Assembly: GCA_900208305.1 (NCBI GenBank)
Contig: OAPG01000015.1
Span: 1 to 64,000, forward strand
DNA: 64,000 bases
Direction of reading: 5' to 3'
From: Melanopsichium pennsylvanicum
Lineage: Eukaryota > Basidiomycota > Ustilaginomycetes > Ustilaginales
Of this stretch, positions 29,595 to 58,314 are shown piece after piece. Numbering within the stretch: the stretch's first letter is position 1; each line of letters starts with the position of its first letter. The position numbers were made by a program, and so were the translations under genes. A model generated the notes under the pieces. The model saw nothing but the letters and a program-made list of their open reading frames with translations, searched no databases and was not told the origin of the DNA.

Positions 29595-29675
29595 TCAGTG
29601 ATTTCCTGACTGAGACATGATGGCGCCGAGTCGCGTATACGCGAGATTGAAATTGTTTGCTGGCAAGGAGAGACC
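29595..29675 (-). pseudogene. Severed 3' end of the transposon-interrupted gene
   Basis: Reading the minus strand from the left target duplication gives 26 sense codons and a TGA (29597-29595), in the same phase as the exon that ends at the other side of the element. It is now separated from the rest of its gene by 5 kb. See the entry at 34657-35097. Confidence 0.65.
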
Positions 29676-29680
29676 CAAAC

Positions 29681-30017
29681 AGTTGAAGGTTGTTATTCTT
29701 GGTTCTTATTTGCTTGATTTTTCTGACTATTTACATGCTGAATCTTCGGGTTTATATACCTTCGTCGCGGCCCCCAAAATTCGGCAAAGACAGGGTAATC
29801 TTGTCAAGTATCGTTCGCTATACACGTATTACAATATTTCCCTCTTATTAATGTCAGGGGTTCGAGCCCCCTATTGGGAGCCATGAATGTCAGGGGTTCG
29901 AGCCCCCTATTGGGAGCCATCGCCTTCAGTTTCTTCGCTTTGTCCGCATTCAGCTTTATTCGCCTCATGCCTTAATTCATCTGCCCATCTAATTCGGTCG
30001 GCGCAATATCTTCAACT
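29681..30017 (-). repeat. 3' LTR of the Copia element
   Basis: Identical to the copy at 34320-34656. It contains the end of pol (stop at 29974-29972), two tandem 36-bp units with a tRNA-Lys 3' half (29851-29920), and a TATATAA-type box on the minus strand (at about 29751-29758) that can serve as the element's promoter in the other LTR. Confidence 0.95.
29851..29920 (+). repeat. Twin tRNA-Lys 3'-half sequence inside the LTR
   Basis: Two tandem 36-bp units. Each reads, on the plus strand, as a variable loop ATGTCA, a perfect 5-bp T-stem AGGGG/CCCCT around TTCGAGC, a 7-nt acceptor strand ATTGGGA, discriminator G and CCA. This is the 3' half of a tRNA and closely matches the known 3' half of fungal tRNA-Lys(UUU). 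Nuclear tRNA genes do not encode CCA, so the source is a mature tRNA. On the element's own strand it reads TGGCTCCC..., like a primer-binding site. The same pair recurs at 34490-34559. Confidence 0.85.
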
Positions 30018-33000
30018 CCCCCCCTCGCCGGCCGTACCATATTTATCCCGTTACACGTTCGCATAATGATTGCCTTTGGTACTGGTTTGGTCAACATGTC
30101 CGCCAAATTTTCTTCGGTCCTGATATGCTTGATTTCCAGCGATCCGGATTGCACATTATCCCTAATGAAATGGTACCGAGTATCAATGTGTTTGAGTTTC
30201 CAATGTTTCGCCGCGTCTTTGCTGACTTGGACGCATCCCATGCTATCGGTCAACATTAACGGTTTTTCTTCGGAAACCCCCAAATCTCGCAGCAAATATT
30301 TGAAAAATAATGCCTCCCTCGCCGCGTCTGATGCTGCCACGAATTCTGCTTCCACCGCCGATAGCGACACACATTTCTGTACCTGCGATTTCCAACTGAC
30401 CAAATTCCCGAAAATGAACGTCGTGGATCCTGAGGTACTCCTTCTGTTCGTCGCCCTCTCTGAAGCCCAATTCGCATCTGTGTACGTTGTTATTGGATGC
30501 TTATTTTCCTCTTTATTTTCGTATCGCAAAGTGTTTTCGGCTGTCTGATTTAAATACTTTAATACCTGAATAGCTGCTTCCCAAGCTCCTTCCCTCGGTT
30601 TCGACATGTACCTCGCCAATGACCCAACGGCGAAGCTTATGTCTGGTCGCACTGTATTTGATACCCATAATAGTTGACCAACCAATTCCTGATAATTCTT
30701 CGATTTTTCCCCAATTATTTCTTCTGTTTCTTCTGCGTCCAGTGGGCATATCATTGGTCGCCATGATTTCTCGCCGTTTGGTAGCCACTTACTGATCATT
30801 TTCTTGATGTATGCTGCTAGATCTAGATCGAGGATTTTCTTGTATCTGTCTCTGGTAATTTTTATACCCAAAAATTCGGTTACGGGTCCATTGTCCTCAA
30901 TTTCCCATTTTCGCCTTATGTCGTCTTTTACTTTGTTTACTTCTCGTTTGTCTGGAGAAATTATCAGCATATCGTCAACATAGGTGGTGATAATTACCAT
31001 TTTATCGCCTTGTCCTTTGAGGTAGATGCACGGTGCACAAGGTAGTCCCTTAAAACCTATGTCTTTCAAATGTTGATCCAATATTTTATTCCATTCTCGC
31101 CCAGATTGCTTGAGCCCATAAAGTCCTTTCTTTAATTTGTAAACCTTACCTTCCGGTACTTGTGTAATCTGCGGGGGCTTGAGGTACACCTCGTGATGCA
31201 ATTCTGAGTTCAAGTATGCTTGAACCACATCAATGCAATCAATTTCCCAATCATTGAACGCCGCTATCGCGAGCACAGCTCGTATTGCTTCCATAGGTGC
31301 AACCGGCGCAAATATTTCGTCATAGTCAATTCCTTGCTGTTGTGTGAATCCTCGTGCTACCAGTCTTGCCTTGTATTTTGTTGGTTTCATATTTGCATCC
31401 GTCTTGATCTTGAGTACTAATTTGGAATCAACCAGCCTTACGTTTAATGGTCTGTCAACAATTTCCCATGTCCCTTTCTTTTCTAATCCCTCGACTTCTT
31501 TCATTATCGCTTCTCTCCACTTTTGTGCATCTTCGCGTGCCATCGCCTCTTTGACCGTGGGCATCAAATCTAGCGTCTCTACTTTGGGATTACCGATGAG
31601 AGCGTATTTTCGCCTATCATTTGATGATTTTCTTGCTTTATTCTCGCTTTCATCGATTTTGGCTCCTGTTGACGAATTAGGGATTTCCTCGCGCTGAAGC
31701 TCTTCAGATGGAATCTCCTCCTGAATTTCTCCTTGGTTTTCTGGGAAATCATCATCCACTAGGTGTTTTAGGGCATCCTCGTAATCTTCGTAATTCGCGT
31801 CTTGATCCTCGTATCCTAGATCTGGAATTTCTGCATTGTCAACCGGTGCTTTTGGCGGATAGATTTTTAATGGGAGGAACTCTGTTCTATCTTGCCAACT
31901 TTGTTGTTCGAGGAATTTAGCCGAATTACTCCAGAATAAATCCGGTTTGTAGTTTGGACTGTAAAATAGCCAACTTTTCCTTGTCAGACTGTATCCAAGC
32001 AGTACCGCCGCAACAGCTCGAGCATCGATTTTGCCGTGTTCCCGCCTTCCTTTAGGAATAAATACCCATGCAAGACAACCAAATACCCTGAGTAGTTGGA
32101 CAAATCGATCCGGTTTCCGTTTAAATGCCTTTTCGTACGGTGTGAGTCCATGTTGGTCTGGAGTGAGGTTAATGGTGAAAGCCGCTGCTTGGACTGCAAA
32201 TGGCCACAGGTTTGCTGGTAATTCTCGTTGGCTAAGCAGCGCTCGCACTCTCTCCATGAGTGTGCGATTCATCCTCTCTACACGCCCATTCTGAGTACTG
32301 GTGTATGGCGAGGTCTTTTCCCAAAGAATTCCTTCATTCGCGCTCCATTGATCTGCTAGAGTGCTGGCCCATTCTCCACCATTATCTGACCTGATTCTTT
32401 TGACCTTGTTGCCTGTTTGATTTTCCATGAATTTCGTCCAATTTTGTAGGCACCCGAGTGCATCGCTTTTCTTGAAAATTGGCGTAGCCAATATGTACCC
32501 GCTATGGTCATCAACAGCTACAAGGATGTTCCGATATTCAGATGTCCCTGATAAATCTGTAATTAAATCGACGTGAATTAATCCGAGTACTTCGCTGTCC
32601 CTTTCTCCACTGCCCTTTCCCATTCTTGCCTGTGTGCTTTTGGCAGCGATGCACTCGTGACAATCCAATGAATCTTCAGGGTCCAATTTGACTTCGCTTG
32701 ATTCACTAAATCTCTTGATGATTGCTCTAGCTTTATCTCGGCCTGGGTGGCCGAGCCTTTCGTGCCATAGGTGTTCCTTGGATACTTTTCTGCTCGGTTC
32801 GCGAATTTGCATTTTTTCTGGTAGGCATTCGAATAATTCTTCTGTCTGATGTAGCCCATAATTCTCACGCTGGTTGGTACGAATTTCCAACCAATTTCTC
32901 TCAACATTTTCTTTTACTCCAATAATCACACCATCTGGGAAATAAATCTTTCCTCCTGAATTTTCAAAAATCACTCGTGCACCACTCTCTTTCATCAAGG

Positions 33001-33268
33001 CAATAACAGATAATAATTTTATATTCGCTTTTGGAACATATAATACATTACGCAGGTGAACTTGCATAATGCCTACATGAGCGAATATATCTCCAATTGC
33101 TTTGATCTCCAATGATCCTTCTCCGGCCGTGTGAACTTGGCCTGAAAAAGGTTTTGGGTCAACGAGCAATGAGAAATCATTTACCATATGCATGCTCGCA
33201 CCAGAGTCCACAACCCAAGTATCTGGGTTAATTTCTTTGTGCGAGCTCGTGAGGGTGCACCAAAATTC
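29972..33268 (-). CDS. Copia pol polyprotein
   Basis: Open from just after the gag UAG (33271-33269) to 29972, 1098 codons, with no internal break. Order: protease active site VVDSGAS; GAG-pre-integrase with WHERLGHPG and CHEC; integrase core with VAVDDHSGY, IRSDNGGEW and the catalytic Glu in GRVERMNRT; an acidic linker; RVT_2 reverse transcriptase with YKARLVARGFTQ, LYGLKQ and the YVDD catalytic box; RNase H with TDANWA, SAVEAEF and TDS. It lacks its own ATG near the start, so it must be expressed by reading through UAG from gag. The last codons cross the polypurine tract and end inside the 3' LTR. Confidence 0.93.
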   Translation of the reverse strand, partial: EFWCTLTSSHKEINPDTWVVDSGASMHMVNDFSLLVDPKPFSGQVHTAGEGSLEIKAIGDIFAHVGIMQVHLRNVLYVPKANIKLLSVIALMKESGARVIFENSGGKIYFPDGVIIGVKENVERNWLEIRTNQRENYGLHQTEELFECLPEKMQIREPSRKVSKEHLWHERLGHPGRDKARAIIKRFSESSEVKLDPEDSLDCHECIAAKSTQARMGKGSGERDSEVLGLIHVDLITDLSGTSEYRNILVAVDDHSGYILATPIFKKSDALGCLQNWTKFMENQTGNKVKRIRSDNGGEWASTLADQWSANEGILWEKTSPYTSTQNGRVERMNRTLMERVRALLSQRELPANLWPFAVQAAAFTINLTPDQHGLTPYEKAFKRKPDRFVQLLRVFGCLAWVFIPKGRREHGKIDARAVAAVLLGYSLTRKSWLFYSPNYKPDLFWSNSAKFLEQQSWQDRTEFLPLKIYPPKAPVDNAEIPDLGYEDQDANYEDYEDALKHLVDDDFPENQGEIQEEIPSEELQREEIPNSSTGAKIDESENKARKSSNDRRKYALIGNPKVETLDLMPTVKEAMAREDAQKWREAIMKEVEGLEKKGTWEIVDRPLNVRLVDSKLVLKIKTDANMKPTKYKARLVARGFTQQQGIDYDEIFAPVAPMEAIRAVLAIAAFNDWEIDCIDVVQAYLNSELHHEVYLKPPQITQVPEGKVYKLKKGLYGLKQSGREWNKILDQHLKDIGFKGLPCAPCIYLKGQGDKMVIITTYVDDMLIISPDKREVNKVKDDIRRKWEIEDNGPVTEFLGIKITRDRYKKILDLDLAAYIKKMISKWLPNGEKSWRPMICPLDAEETEEIIGEKSKNYQELVGQLLWVSNTVRPDISFAVGSLARYMSKPREGAWEAAIQVLKYLNQTAENTLRYENKEENKHPITTYTDANWASERATNRRSTSGSTTFIFGNLVSWKSQVQKCVSLSAVEAEFVAASDAAREALFFKYLLRDLGVSEEKPLMLTDSMGCVQVSKDAAKHWKLKHIDTRYHFIRDNVQSGSLEIKHIRTEENLADMLTKPVPKAIIMRTCNGINMVRPARGGVEDIAPTELDGQMN

Positions 33269-34244
33269 CTACTGGCTCGTTTTGGCGTCCGGGGCCGGCT
33301 GGTTGTTTTGTTGCTGGTATGAGCACTGCCTAGCAATGTGCCCAACTTGTCCACAGCTATAACATTTCGGCCTCTCATTAGGCTTACTGGGATCGCGCCG
33401 TCCTTGCCAATAGTAGGGAGTATTGGCCTCCTTGGGACCACTTACATTTGCTGCCCGAGCTTGATAATGGATTGGGTTTCTTCTAACAAATGTACCAGGT
33501 CCGAGTGTCTCGTGCTGGATCTGCTTGGATTCTAAAGCCGTGCAAAGAGCTTTGAACGAGGAAGTCGGATGCATATCTAAGGTTACCTGGTAAATTGGGT
33601 TTCCGTACAGTTGCTGGCGCACGTAATGCGTAAGAGTGTGGTCGATGAACGGATATCCAATTAAGGTTGCCTCGTTGGAAAGGTCCTCGATGTACTTGAT
33701 GTACTTCCTCACATCGTTGTGAAGGACCCTCGCACATACTATTTGATCCAGGATCAATTTAATCCTTTCTTCGTTGTCGACCGTGAGATCTTCTCTGATC
33801 AGCTTCCAGAGCTTTCCAACATGAGCAACTTTTAATCCGATGATTTTGCTCTTGAGCGAGTCGAGTCCATCCTCGCCTCCGGTTTTCATCTTGCTAATGA
33901 TGATTGAACACATCATGTTATCCAAATGTTTATTCCAACCTTCGCTGTTGGGATTTTTCTCGCCTGTAATATATTCGGCGACTCCCTCGAGGGATAACAT
34001 TAGTCGTTCAAAATCTGAATTCCAAAAATCCCCAGTTCTTGCTCGTAAGTTCGCCCAGGCTGCTGAAATGTTTCTGCATGATGATTGGGTCGAGGTTTCG
34101 GATCGGCTGGAAGTCACACTCGTCTTCGAGTTCTTCTTCATCGTCGTTATGAGTGGGGGCGGTGTTCTTGTTTCTTCTTGCTCGAGTTTTCTTAGCTATG
34201 CCTTGAGCCTCGACTGGCATAGTCTGTGGTTCGACGCTGGACAT
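33269..34244 (-). CDS. Copia gag, with a +1 frame break
   Basis: Starts at the ATG at 34244, 76 nt inside the 5' LTR. The first frame covers an acidic N-terminus and stops at 34008. The rest of Gag is in the frame one nucleotide further on, open from 34141 to a UAG at 33271-33269. The switch must lie at about 34020-34045, near a GGGG and TTTTT pair (CTGGGGATTTTT on the minus strand). The second part has the Gag core (FERLMLSLEGVAEYI) and one CCHC zinc knuckle, CYSCGQVGHIARQC, near its end. The break could be a mutation, a homopolymer sequencing error, or +1 recoding. Confidence 0.85.
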
Positions 34245-34299
34245 TTTCTTGGTTCTTGTTTCTTGTTCTTGTTTCTTGTTCTTGTTAGCTCGTCGTTCT

Positions 34300-34319
34300 G
34301 AGCATTCAGACTCTTAATC
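34300..34319 (-). other. Primer-binding site, half tRNA-Lys(CUU) type
   Basis: Directly inside the 5' LTR the minus strand reads GATTAAGAGTCTGAATGC. Its complement, CAGACTCTTAATC, is the anticodon arm of tRNA-Lys(CUU), with CTT flanked by the usual loop bases. Copia-type elements are known to prime from cleaved half-tRNAs using the anticodon arm, classically initiator Met. Confidence 0.7.
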
Positions 34320-34656
34320 AGTTGAAGGTTGTTATTCTTGGTTCTTATTTGCTTGATTTTTCTGACTATTTACATGCTGAATCTTCGGGTTTATATACCT
34401 TCGTCGCGGCCCCCAAAATTCGGCAAAGACAGGGTAATCTTGTCAAGTATCGTTCGCTATACACGTATTACAATATTTCCCTCTTATTAATGTCAGGGGT
34501 TCGAGCCCCCTATTGGGAGCCATGAATGTCAGGGGTTCGAGCCCCCTATTGGGAGCCATCGCCTTCAGTTTCTTCGCTTTGTCCGCATTCAGCTTTATTC
34601 GCCTCATGCCTTAATTCATCTGCCCATCTAATTCGGTCGGCGCAATATCTTCAACT
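34320..34656 (-). repeat. 5' LTR of the Copia element
   Basis: 337 bp, identical by eye to 29681-30017, including the twin tRNA-Lys 3'-half units at 34490-34559. On the minus strand it holds GGTATATAAACC, a TATA box suited to start the genomic RNA. Confidence 0.95.
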
Positions 34657-35097
34657 CAAACCCCCCCCTCCCGAGAAGGCCTTTCCGTCATTGCGCATAC
34701 GGTACTGACGCCCCGAAGCGCCATTGGACTTGCTCATACCCAAAGCGACTTACATCTCGGCCGTGAATCTTTCGATCCTCAAAGCTCAGATCCTCCCTGC
34801 TTCTCCGAGTGTCGCTCGTCTGGTATGTCGCACCATCTGTCACAGAGCTCAACACCGATGACCGCTTTTTTTGTCTTGAACTTATACCTTGATCTGGTCC
34901 TTGAATCCAAGATACCACCTCAAGTCTTCTTCCAGGCTGACCGAATCTGAAAGATTCTGTCGTTCGTTGTCAAGGATGTCGACAATGTCATGCACATCCT
35001 CTAAGATGGGACTGCATTTTTTTTCGTACTTCCGTGCAGCTTCGATAATCATCTCCGCAAGTTCTTCGCCCAGCACAGTGAGACCTCTTTTTTGCAT
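34657..35097 (-). pseudogene. Small host gene cut by the Copia element
   Basis: Model: exon 1 35097-34888 (70 codons), intron 34887-34820, exon 2 34819-34754 (22 codons), intron 34753-34705, exon 3 from 34704. Both introns are GT-AG (68 and 49 nt) and phase 0. Exon 3 runs for 16 codons into the target duplication and hits the LTR; there the frame reads one Ser and a TGA. Beyond the element the same phase continues for 26 codons to a stop at 29595. So an original protein of about 134 aa has lost its last 26 residues. The N-terminus is helical and acidic (EELAEMIIEAARKYEKK; ILEDVHDIVDIL). I do not recognise the family. A TATATATA-like box lies at about 35229-35238, some 130 nt before the ATG. 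Confidence 0.6.
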
Positions 35098-58208: not shown

Positions 58209-58314
58209 CCGGACATAGCTCAGTTGGAAGTAGCGATGGTTTGTAATTGGAAACCCTAATCCGGTATTAACGGAAAAACACCATAGGTCGCCGGTTCGAT
58301 TCCGGCTGTCCGGA
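58209..58314 (+). tRNA. tRNA-Tyr(GUA) with intron
   Basis: Acceptor CCGGACA (58209-58215) pairs with TGTCCGG (58307-58313), discriminator A58314. D-arm TAGCTCAGTTGG also serves as A box. The anticodon stem ATGGT/ACCAT encloses TTGTAAC with anticodon GTA at 58243-58245; a 32-nt intron (58247-58278) sits directly after position 37, as in all known eukaryotic tRNA-Tyr genes. T-arm GCCGG-TTCGATT-CCGGC holds the B box. A T6 Pol III terminator follows at about 58321-58326. Confidence 0.95.

Follow-up and report, generated by a model that had tools for sequence, protein, structure and literature searches.

The window, i.e. the whole stretch of 64,000 nucleotides that was analysed and part of an assembly of 21.1 Mb in 61 contigs, contains a complete Copia element on its minus strand, which is 4976 bp long and has reading frames for Gag and Pol. 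The parts of this element, together with the tRNA-derived units found inside its long terminal repeats (LTRs), are as follows.

29676..29680, no strand: target-site duplication CAAAC, left copy (GTTTG/GTTTG when read on the element strand)
29681..30017, minus strand: 3' LTR, 337 bp, AGTTGAAG...CTTCAACT, identical to the 5' LTR
29850..29883, plus strand: unit b of the 3' LTR, tRNA-Lys(UUU) nucleotides 43-76 including CCA, 34 nt, antisense in the element RNA
29884..29919, plus strand: unit a of the 3' LTR, tRNA-Lys(UUU) nucleotides 41-76 including CCA, exact over 36 nt, antisense in the element RNA
29972..33211, minus strand: Pol reading frame, 1079 amino acids, with Pol_BBD, GAG-pre-integrase, rve, SH3-like and RVT_2 matched in pieces
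30018..30026, minus strand: putative polypurine tract GAGGGGGGG adjoining the 3' LTR, called from sequence alone
33269..34141, minus strand: Gag reading frame, 290 amino acids, with a CCHC zinc knuckle
34275..34305, minus strand: 31 nt past the core of the primer-binding site (PBS), with more complementarity to the 5' part of the tRNA, as judged by pairing energy
34306..34319, minus strand: PBS core GATTAAGAGTCTGA, abutting the 5' LTR, complementary to tRNA-Lys(CUU) nucleotides 27-40
34320..34656, minus strand: 5' LTR, 337 bp, identical to the 3' LTR
34489..34522, plus strand: unit b of the 5' LTR, tRNA-Lys nucleotides 43-76, by sequence
34523..34558, plus strand: unit a of the 5' LTR, tRNA-Lys nucleotides 41-76, by sequence
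34657..34661, no strand: target-site duplication CAAAC, right copy (GTTTG/GTTTG on the element strand)

A family search on pieces of the reading frames gave the order zf-CCHC, Pol_BBD, GAG-pre-integrase, rve, SH3-like and RVT_2, i.e. the element has the RVT_2-type reverse transcriptase, with the integrase ahead of it, that characterizes the Copia superfamily, as do the 5-bp target-site duplications, which are intact in all eight complete copies in the genome. The same search matched no family to the last 179-residue piece, and RNase H was not among the domains found. The Pol stop codon falls within the 3' LTR, ahead of the tRNA units. An Rfam scan of 29600-34800 gave no match, and a related-locus search against viral contigs with the reverse transcriptase piece as query returned no relative.

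Both LTRs carry two tandem copies of a CCA-bearing 3' part of tRNA-Lys, just as the initial annotation had proposed. The pair lies at 29850-29919 in the 3' LTR and at 34489-34558 in the 5' LTR, one base below the positions originally given (29851..29920 and 34490-34559), and the length of 36 bp ascribed to each unit is right for unit a, whereas unit b, covering nucleotides 43-76, has 34 nt. On sequence grounds, the exact identity of unit a to tRNA-Lys(UUU) over 36 nt is not due to chance. Searching the genome with the unit core found 34 places, namely 33 units and a single tRNA-Lys(UUU) gene, and the unit did not turn out to be part of a longer unrelated repeat. A more general pattern—a T-arm followed by 11 nt and CCA—matched 48 times in 21.1 Mb; 33 of these matches are the LTR units by position, and since the remaining 15 do not outnumber the 17 matches of a reversed control pattern, CCA-bearing T-arm sites other than the units are not above control.

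The host tRNA-Lys genes provide a reference for these units. A D-arm region pattern was found at 35 places, in 24 of them with mismatches and in 11 exactly; the 11 exact places were read and correspond to one tRNA-Lys(UUU), five tRNA-Lys(CUU) and five tRNA-Ala genes. The tRNA-Lys(UUU) gene (L039; C5:136903 and up, minus strand), which contains an intron of 31 nt, is identical to the unit up to CCA, as had been expected of a matching host tRNA, and then continues with TCTAAC. CCA is likewise missing from the five tRNA-Lys(CUU) genes (L092, L093, L094, L095 and L099). With CCA encoded in none of the six tRNA-Lys genes read, the units were most likely copied from a template that already bore it, i.e. 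a tRNA after CCA addition. The intron of tRNA-Lys sits at approximately 37/38, and unit a begins at nucleotide 41. As a side observation on the tRNA matches in this assembly, many of the contigs from C24 upwards repeat the same few matches at similar spacings and in alternating orientation, and are perhaps organelle or repeat contigs.

The units had also been read as PBSs of the element. This role was rejected, as the site that abuts the LTR edge at 34306-34319 pairs with the anticodon stem-loop instead. Its core is complementary to tRNA-Lys(CUU) nucleotides 27-40 at 14 of 14 positions, across the splice junction, and to tRNA-Lys(UUU) at 13 of 14, the remaining position perhaps forming a G-U pair. 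The sequence GATTAAGAGTCTGAATGCTC directly follows the 5' LTR in each of the nine copies in which the junction was read. For the 31-nt extension the pairing energy with the 5' part of the tRNA is -21.0 kcal/mol, compared with a shuffle mean of -10.6, and only 0.2% of 2000 single-base shuffles were as low. Given the complementarity to nucleotides 27-40, the primer of the element is probably a 5' half of tRNA-Lys, in line with copia, Ty5 and the fungal FunCo1 elements. The PBS core stops at tRNA nucleotide 40 and LTR unit a starts at 41, so that the two sequences abut at a common 40|41 boundary. The initial annotation had overlooked this half-tRNA PBS and the 40|41 boundary, as well as the empty site and the four forms of the inserted segment described below.

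One base after the 5' LTR edge the element also shows the motif ATTAAGAGTCT, reported as the PBS motif after the 5' LTR of FunCo1 elements (PMC5445492). The complement of this 11-mer occurs at nine copies of the window element's family, and its 15 matches in the genome (a control gave 5) comprise these nine, three in a second Copia family and three elsewhere. The second family emerged from the 14 RVT_2 matches in the genome, nine of which belong to the window element's family and five to others: three of these five (C3:1298275, C9:575157 and C1:1326452) have the same 11-mer at a constant 2926 bases from the reverse transcriptase match. By position, no CCA-bearing T-arm match lies within 5 kb of these three copies, and a PBS of the FunCo1 type thus does not seem to bring the units with it by itself.

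How the LTR looked before the units arrived can be seen in older relatives, which were found by searching with the LTR parts that flank the insert. At C3:1202660 and C18:272590 the sequence runs GGCG-AATAAAAGGG and GGCG-AACAAAAGGG, with no insert, where the window has GGCGA-units-AATAAGAGGG. An uninterrupted match to the empty sequence spans the site at two further places (C22:427675 and C1:1912754), and also at C2:793114, where one side is covered by no more than six bases. The closer relatives at C14:115150 and C12:695370 are also without units and have other deletions or repeats at the site, where loss is possible. As older relatives carry the empty site, we regard the insert as recent; copying of the CCA-bearing 3' part of tRNA-Lys(UUU) into the LTR, one of the origins suggested initially, gains support from these relatives. 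Beside the insert (window 29842-29849) the element reads UAAGAG where the empty-site relatives read UAAAAG. UAAGAG is the complement of tRNA-Lys(CUU) 32-37, and its interpretation as a piece of captured tRNA was dropped, because six bases are too few to decide and may match by chance. Upstream of the insert site, the U3 of old LTRs (L102, L103 and L104, on C3, C14 and C12) contains tandem repeats of approximately 40 bp, which vary among them.

Variation within the family is concentrated in the insert. Twenty LTRs were cut out from 12 loci: the 98 bp on the left side of the insert are invariant in all 20, the 169 bp on its right side have two variable positions, and the insert itself comes in four forms. 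Eleven LTRs have the double form; two, i.e. both LTRs of the C12 copy, have a double form with a CUU patch, in which one unit combines CUU-type bases at 49-50 with UUU-type bases at 64-66; one, a solo LTR on C2, has a single unit; and six, from the copies on C17, C6 and C4, have an inverted form, in which a unit lies in opposite orientation and a palindromic T-arm comes after it. Repeat loss would yield the very sequence of the single-unit form, which therefore cannot be claimed to be ancestral. Thus, an LTR segment can apparently be rewritten, partly from host tRNA, while few ordinary substitutions accumulate.

The eight complete copies differ from each other by only 1-9 bases over approximately 4300 internal bases, with 16 variable columns, and their LTR pairs are identical in seven cases and differ at one position in the eighth; we regard the element as young. 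In all eight, both LTRs share the same form of the insert. Both LTRs of a new copy of an LTR element derive from one U3, and the changes of form thus preceded reverse transcription or took place in its course. When internal haplotypes are set against LTR forms, all four combinations are found (one of them in a single copy, on C6), which suggests recombination between element copies.

Overall, we think it probable that this is a young FunCo1-like Copia element, probably primed by the 5' half of a tRNA-Lys, and that its U3 contains cDNA of the other, 3' half of this kind of tRNA. According to this model, tRNA-Lys would enter the particle and pair with the PBS through nucleotides 27-40 and additional sequence of its 5' part, and minus-strand DNA would be primed from the 3' end at C40. 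The 3' part, i.e. nucleotides 41-76 with CCA, would either be cut free or be left free as the rest of the tRNA sits in the duplex. During synthesis of element-sense DNA through U3, reverse transcriptase would then jump from GGCGA to the CCA end of this 3' part, copy it to nucleotide 41, jump to a second 3' part and finally return to U3 at AATAAG. In later replication rounds the segment could be rewritten by loss or gain of units, by fold-back inversion and by exchange with tRNA-Lys(CUU). The start at nucleotide 41 may reflect cleavage of the tRNA at this point or the limit of its duplex with the PBS, and the sequence fits both.

Some observations speak against this origin. The units match tRNA-Lys(UUU) while the PBS core fits tRNA-Lys(CUU) best, and template and primer may thus have been different isoacceptors; this mismatch is softened by the chimeric unit of the C12 copy, which suggests that CUU sequence has also entered the LTR segment. 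Moreover, unit b begins at nucleotide 43 and not at 41. Only one independent 76|41 junction is certain: the inverted form may have received its own by descent from the tandem array of the double form, and was therefore dropped as an independent proof of the 41 boundary.

If the units did arise in this way, they would bear on a more general question. To our knowledge, there is no general answer as to where half-tRNA primers come from or whether their counterpart is retained in the particle; in the case of Ty5, a review names RNase P for the formation of the half-tRNA primer (PMC5371799). A unit that starts one base after the end of the PBS would be a sequence record suggesting that the CCA-bearing second part of the tRNA was present and was copied. 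It also defines a concrete 36-nt molecule that could be sought in particles.

Several known systems share single features with the window element. The element copia is primed by initiator tRNA-Met, whereas the window element fits tRNA-Lys; Ty3, a Gypsy element, primes from the native tRNA 3' end and its U3 segments complementary to the tRNA are short, in contrast to the segments of 34-36 nt found here, which are exact, tandem and in some copies inverted. For copia and Ty5, priming from an internal tRNA end is described (PMC5371799; PMC10886601): the likeness lies in a PBS directed against the anticodon stem-loop and thus in priming from an internal tRNA 3' end, a mode that the window element would share as far as its sequence tells. 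Ty5 differs in that its primer is initiator tRNA-Met (PMC5371799), while the window element points to tRNA-Lys and also contains the other half of it. With FunCo1 elements, which are Copia elements of fungi, the PBS motif is shared, and it is from this motif that the likeness is drawn; the element type and the introns of the tRNA genes point to a fungal host here as well; the accessible part of their description mentions no tRNA copy in the LTR (PMC5445492). Elements termed Helenus (TRIMp3) have tRNA-derived sequence within their LTRs and, in fungi, 5-bp target-site duplications and PBSs mostly directed against anticodon loops, yet they are short and non-autonomous, have A and B boxes, and their LTR tRNA sequence is, according to their author, not complementary to the PBS (PMC10886601). 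The window element, in contrast, has Gag and Pol frames and only the 3' half of a tRNA, with CCA and of the same kind as fits the PBS; membership in Helenus/TRIMp3 was rejected for an element of 4976 bp with Gag and Pol frames and with B boxes but no A-box match.

Reverse-transcribed tRNA in or beside retroviral DNA has precedents in the work of Colicelli and Goff, in HITME recombination and in an HIV tRNA-Gly case, as described in PMC12220202. They resemble our case in that a tRNA was copied by reverse transcriptase, and in the last of them the CCA end is seen as well. The three HIV cases, as far as described there, involve 63-67 nt of various tRNAs in single viral DNAs (PMC12220202), whereas the window element has a heritable tandem 3' half that has spread through a family. 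In Yarrowia, the downstream LTR of a Gypsy element is described as complementary to tRNA in patches (PMC5014426). As far as seen in the accessible parts of these sources, none of the compared systems has the exact other half of its apparent primer tRNA kind in the LTR, and no report of such an arrangement was recognised among the literature matches listed, a search whose scope left out most subscription journals.

The units may also be of use to the element. The PBS of Ty3 is divided, with Ty3 RNA contacting the tRNA at the 5' PBS as well as in U3 (PMC5371799, PMC11381356). Likewise, the 5' half of an intact tRNA-Lys could pair with the PBS here while its 3' half pairs with the U3 unit; the bridged RNA ends would aid initiation or first strand transfer, and the unit would be kept because it is useful. 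The necessary complementarity exists: in the double form, the RNA is complementary in U3 to tRNA nucleotides 41-76 with -78.6 kcal/mol for UUU and -63.9 for CUU, and at the PBS to 27-40 and more of the 5' part, and 14 of the 20 LTRs, i.e. those of the double, single and chimeric forms, hold full-length units that read antisense in the element RNA. However, in the inverted form of the other six (which include three complete copies with target-site duplications) pairing is reduced, down to -48.9 for UUU and -44.2 for CUU, and the older relatives have no unit at all; both kinds have moved too, and a U3 unit is thus not required. Furthermore, cleavage of the tRNA at 40|41 would preclude such bridging. 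We consider this kind of divided primer site unlikely. Somewhat less likely still is its more far-reaching version, in which both halves of the element's own primer tRNA kind are written into the element as complements, the 5' half at the PBS and the 3' half in U3, an intact tRNA-Lys clamps the RNA ends, and reverse transcription refreshes the U3 part from the tRNAs of the host. If true, U3 unit and PBS would together form a self-updating split primer site. We take the units to be a scar of copying, and not a required part of the element.

That the segment changed at the DNA level, by insertion of a piece of a tRNA gene or pseudogene which ordinary recombination then duplicated and inverted, seems the least probable of the explanations considered: none of the six tRNA-Lys genes read encodes CCA, the intron at approximately 37/38 does not coincide with the unit start at 41, and the two LTRs of each complete copy agree in form. 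Unit loss, inversion at a near-palindrome and conversion-like patches are all generally known as DNA-level changes as well, and DNA recombination or gene conversion might also account for the inverted form and the CUU patch even if the units themselves were copied from tRNA by reverse transcriptase. It is likewise improbable, though marginally less so, that the two B boxes in U3 (GGTTCGAGCCC) recruit TFIIIC and thereby act on transcription, insulation or integration. Helenus and Cassandra LTRs do carry tRNA- or 5S-derived promoters (PMC10886601); in the window element, however, no A-box pattern matches either LTR strand, a TATA box is present on the element strand, and the units run against the direction of the element. 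A tRNA gene was found in the flanks of approximately 1 kb at only one of 11 insertion loci, and targeting near tRNA genes, another role that had been considered for the units, was rejected on this count.

In the window itself, a tRNA gene was found approximately 23 kb from the element. A tRNA at window 58209-58314, first called as tRNA-Ile, becomes tRNA-Tyr(GTA) with a 32-nt intron once introns of up to 90 nt are allowed. Among the insertion loci, two hold partial copies with complementary remains: on C1 (L047, C1:1990000-1993000) a 5' LTR and PBS with the left flank CAAAC and no further LTR match nearby, and on C5 (L046, C5:501500-504500) a 3' LTR only, with the right flank CAAAC. Together these look like one insertion that was split by a translocation or by an assembly join inside the element.
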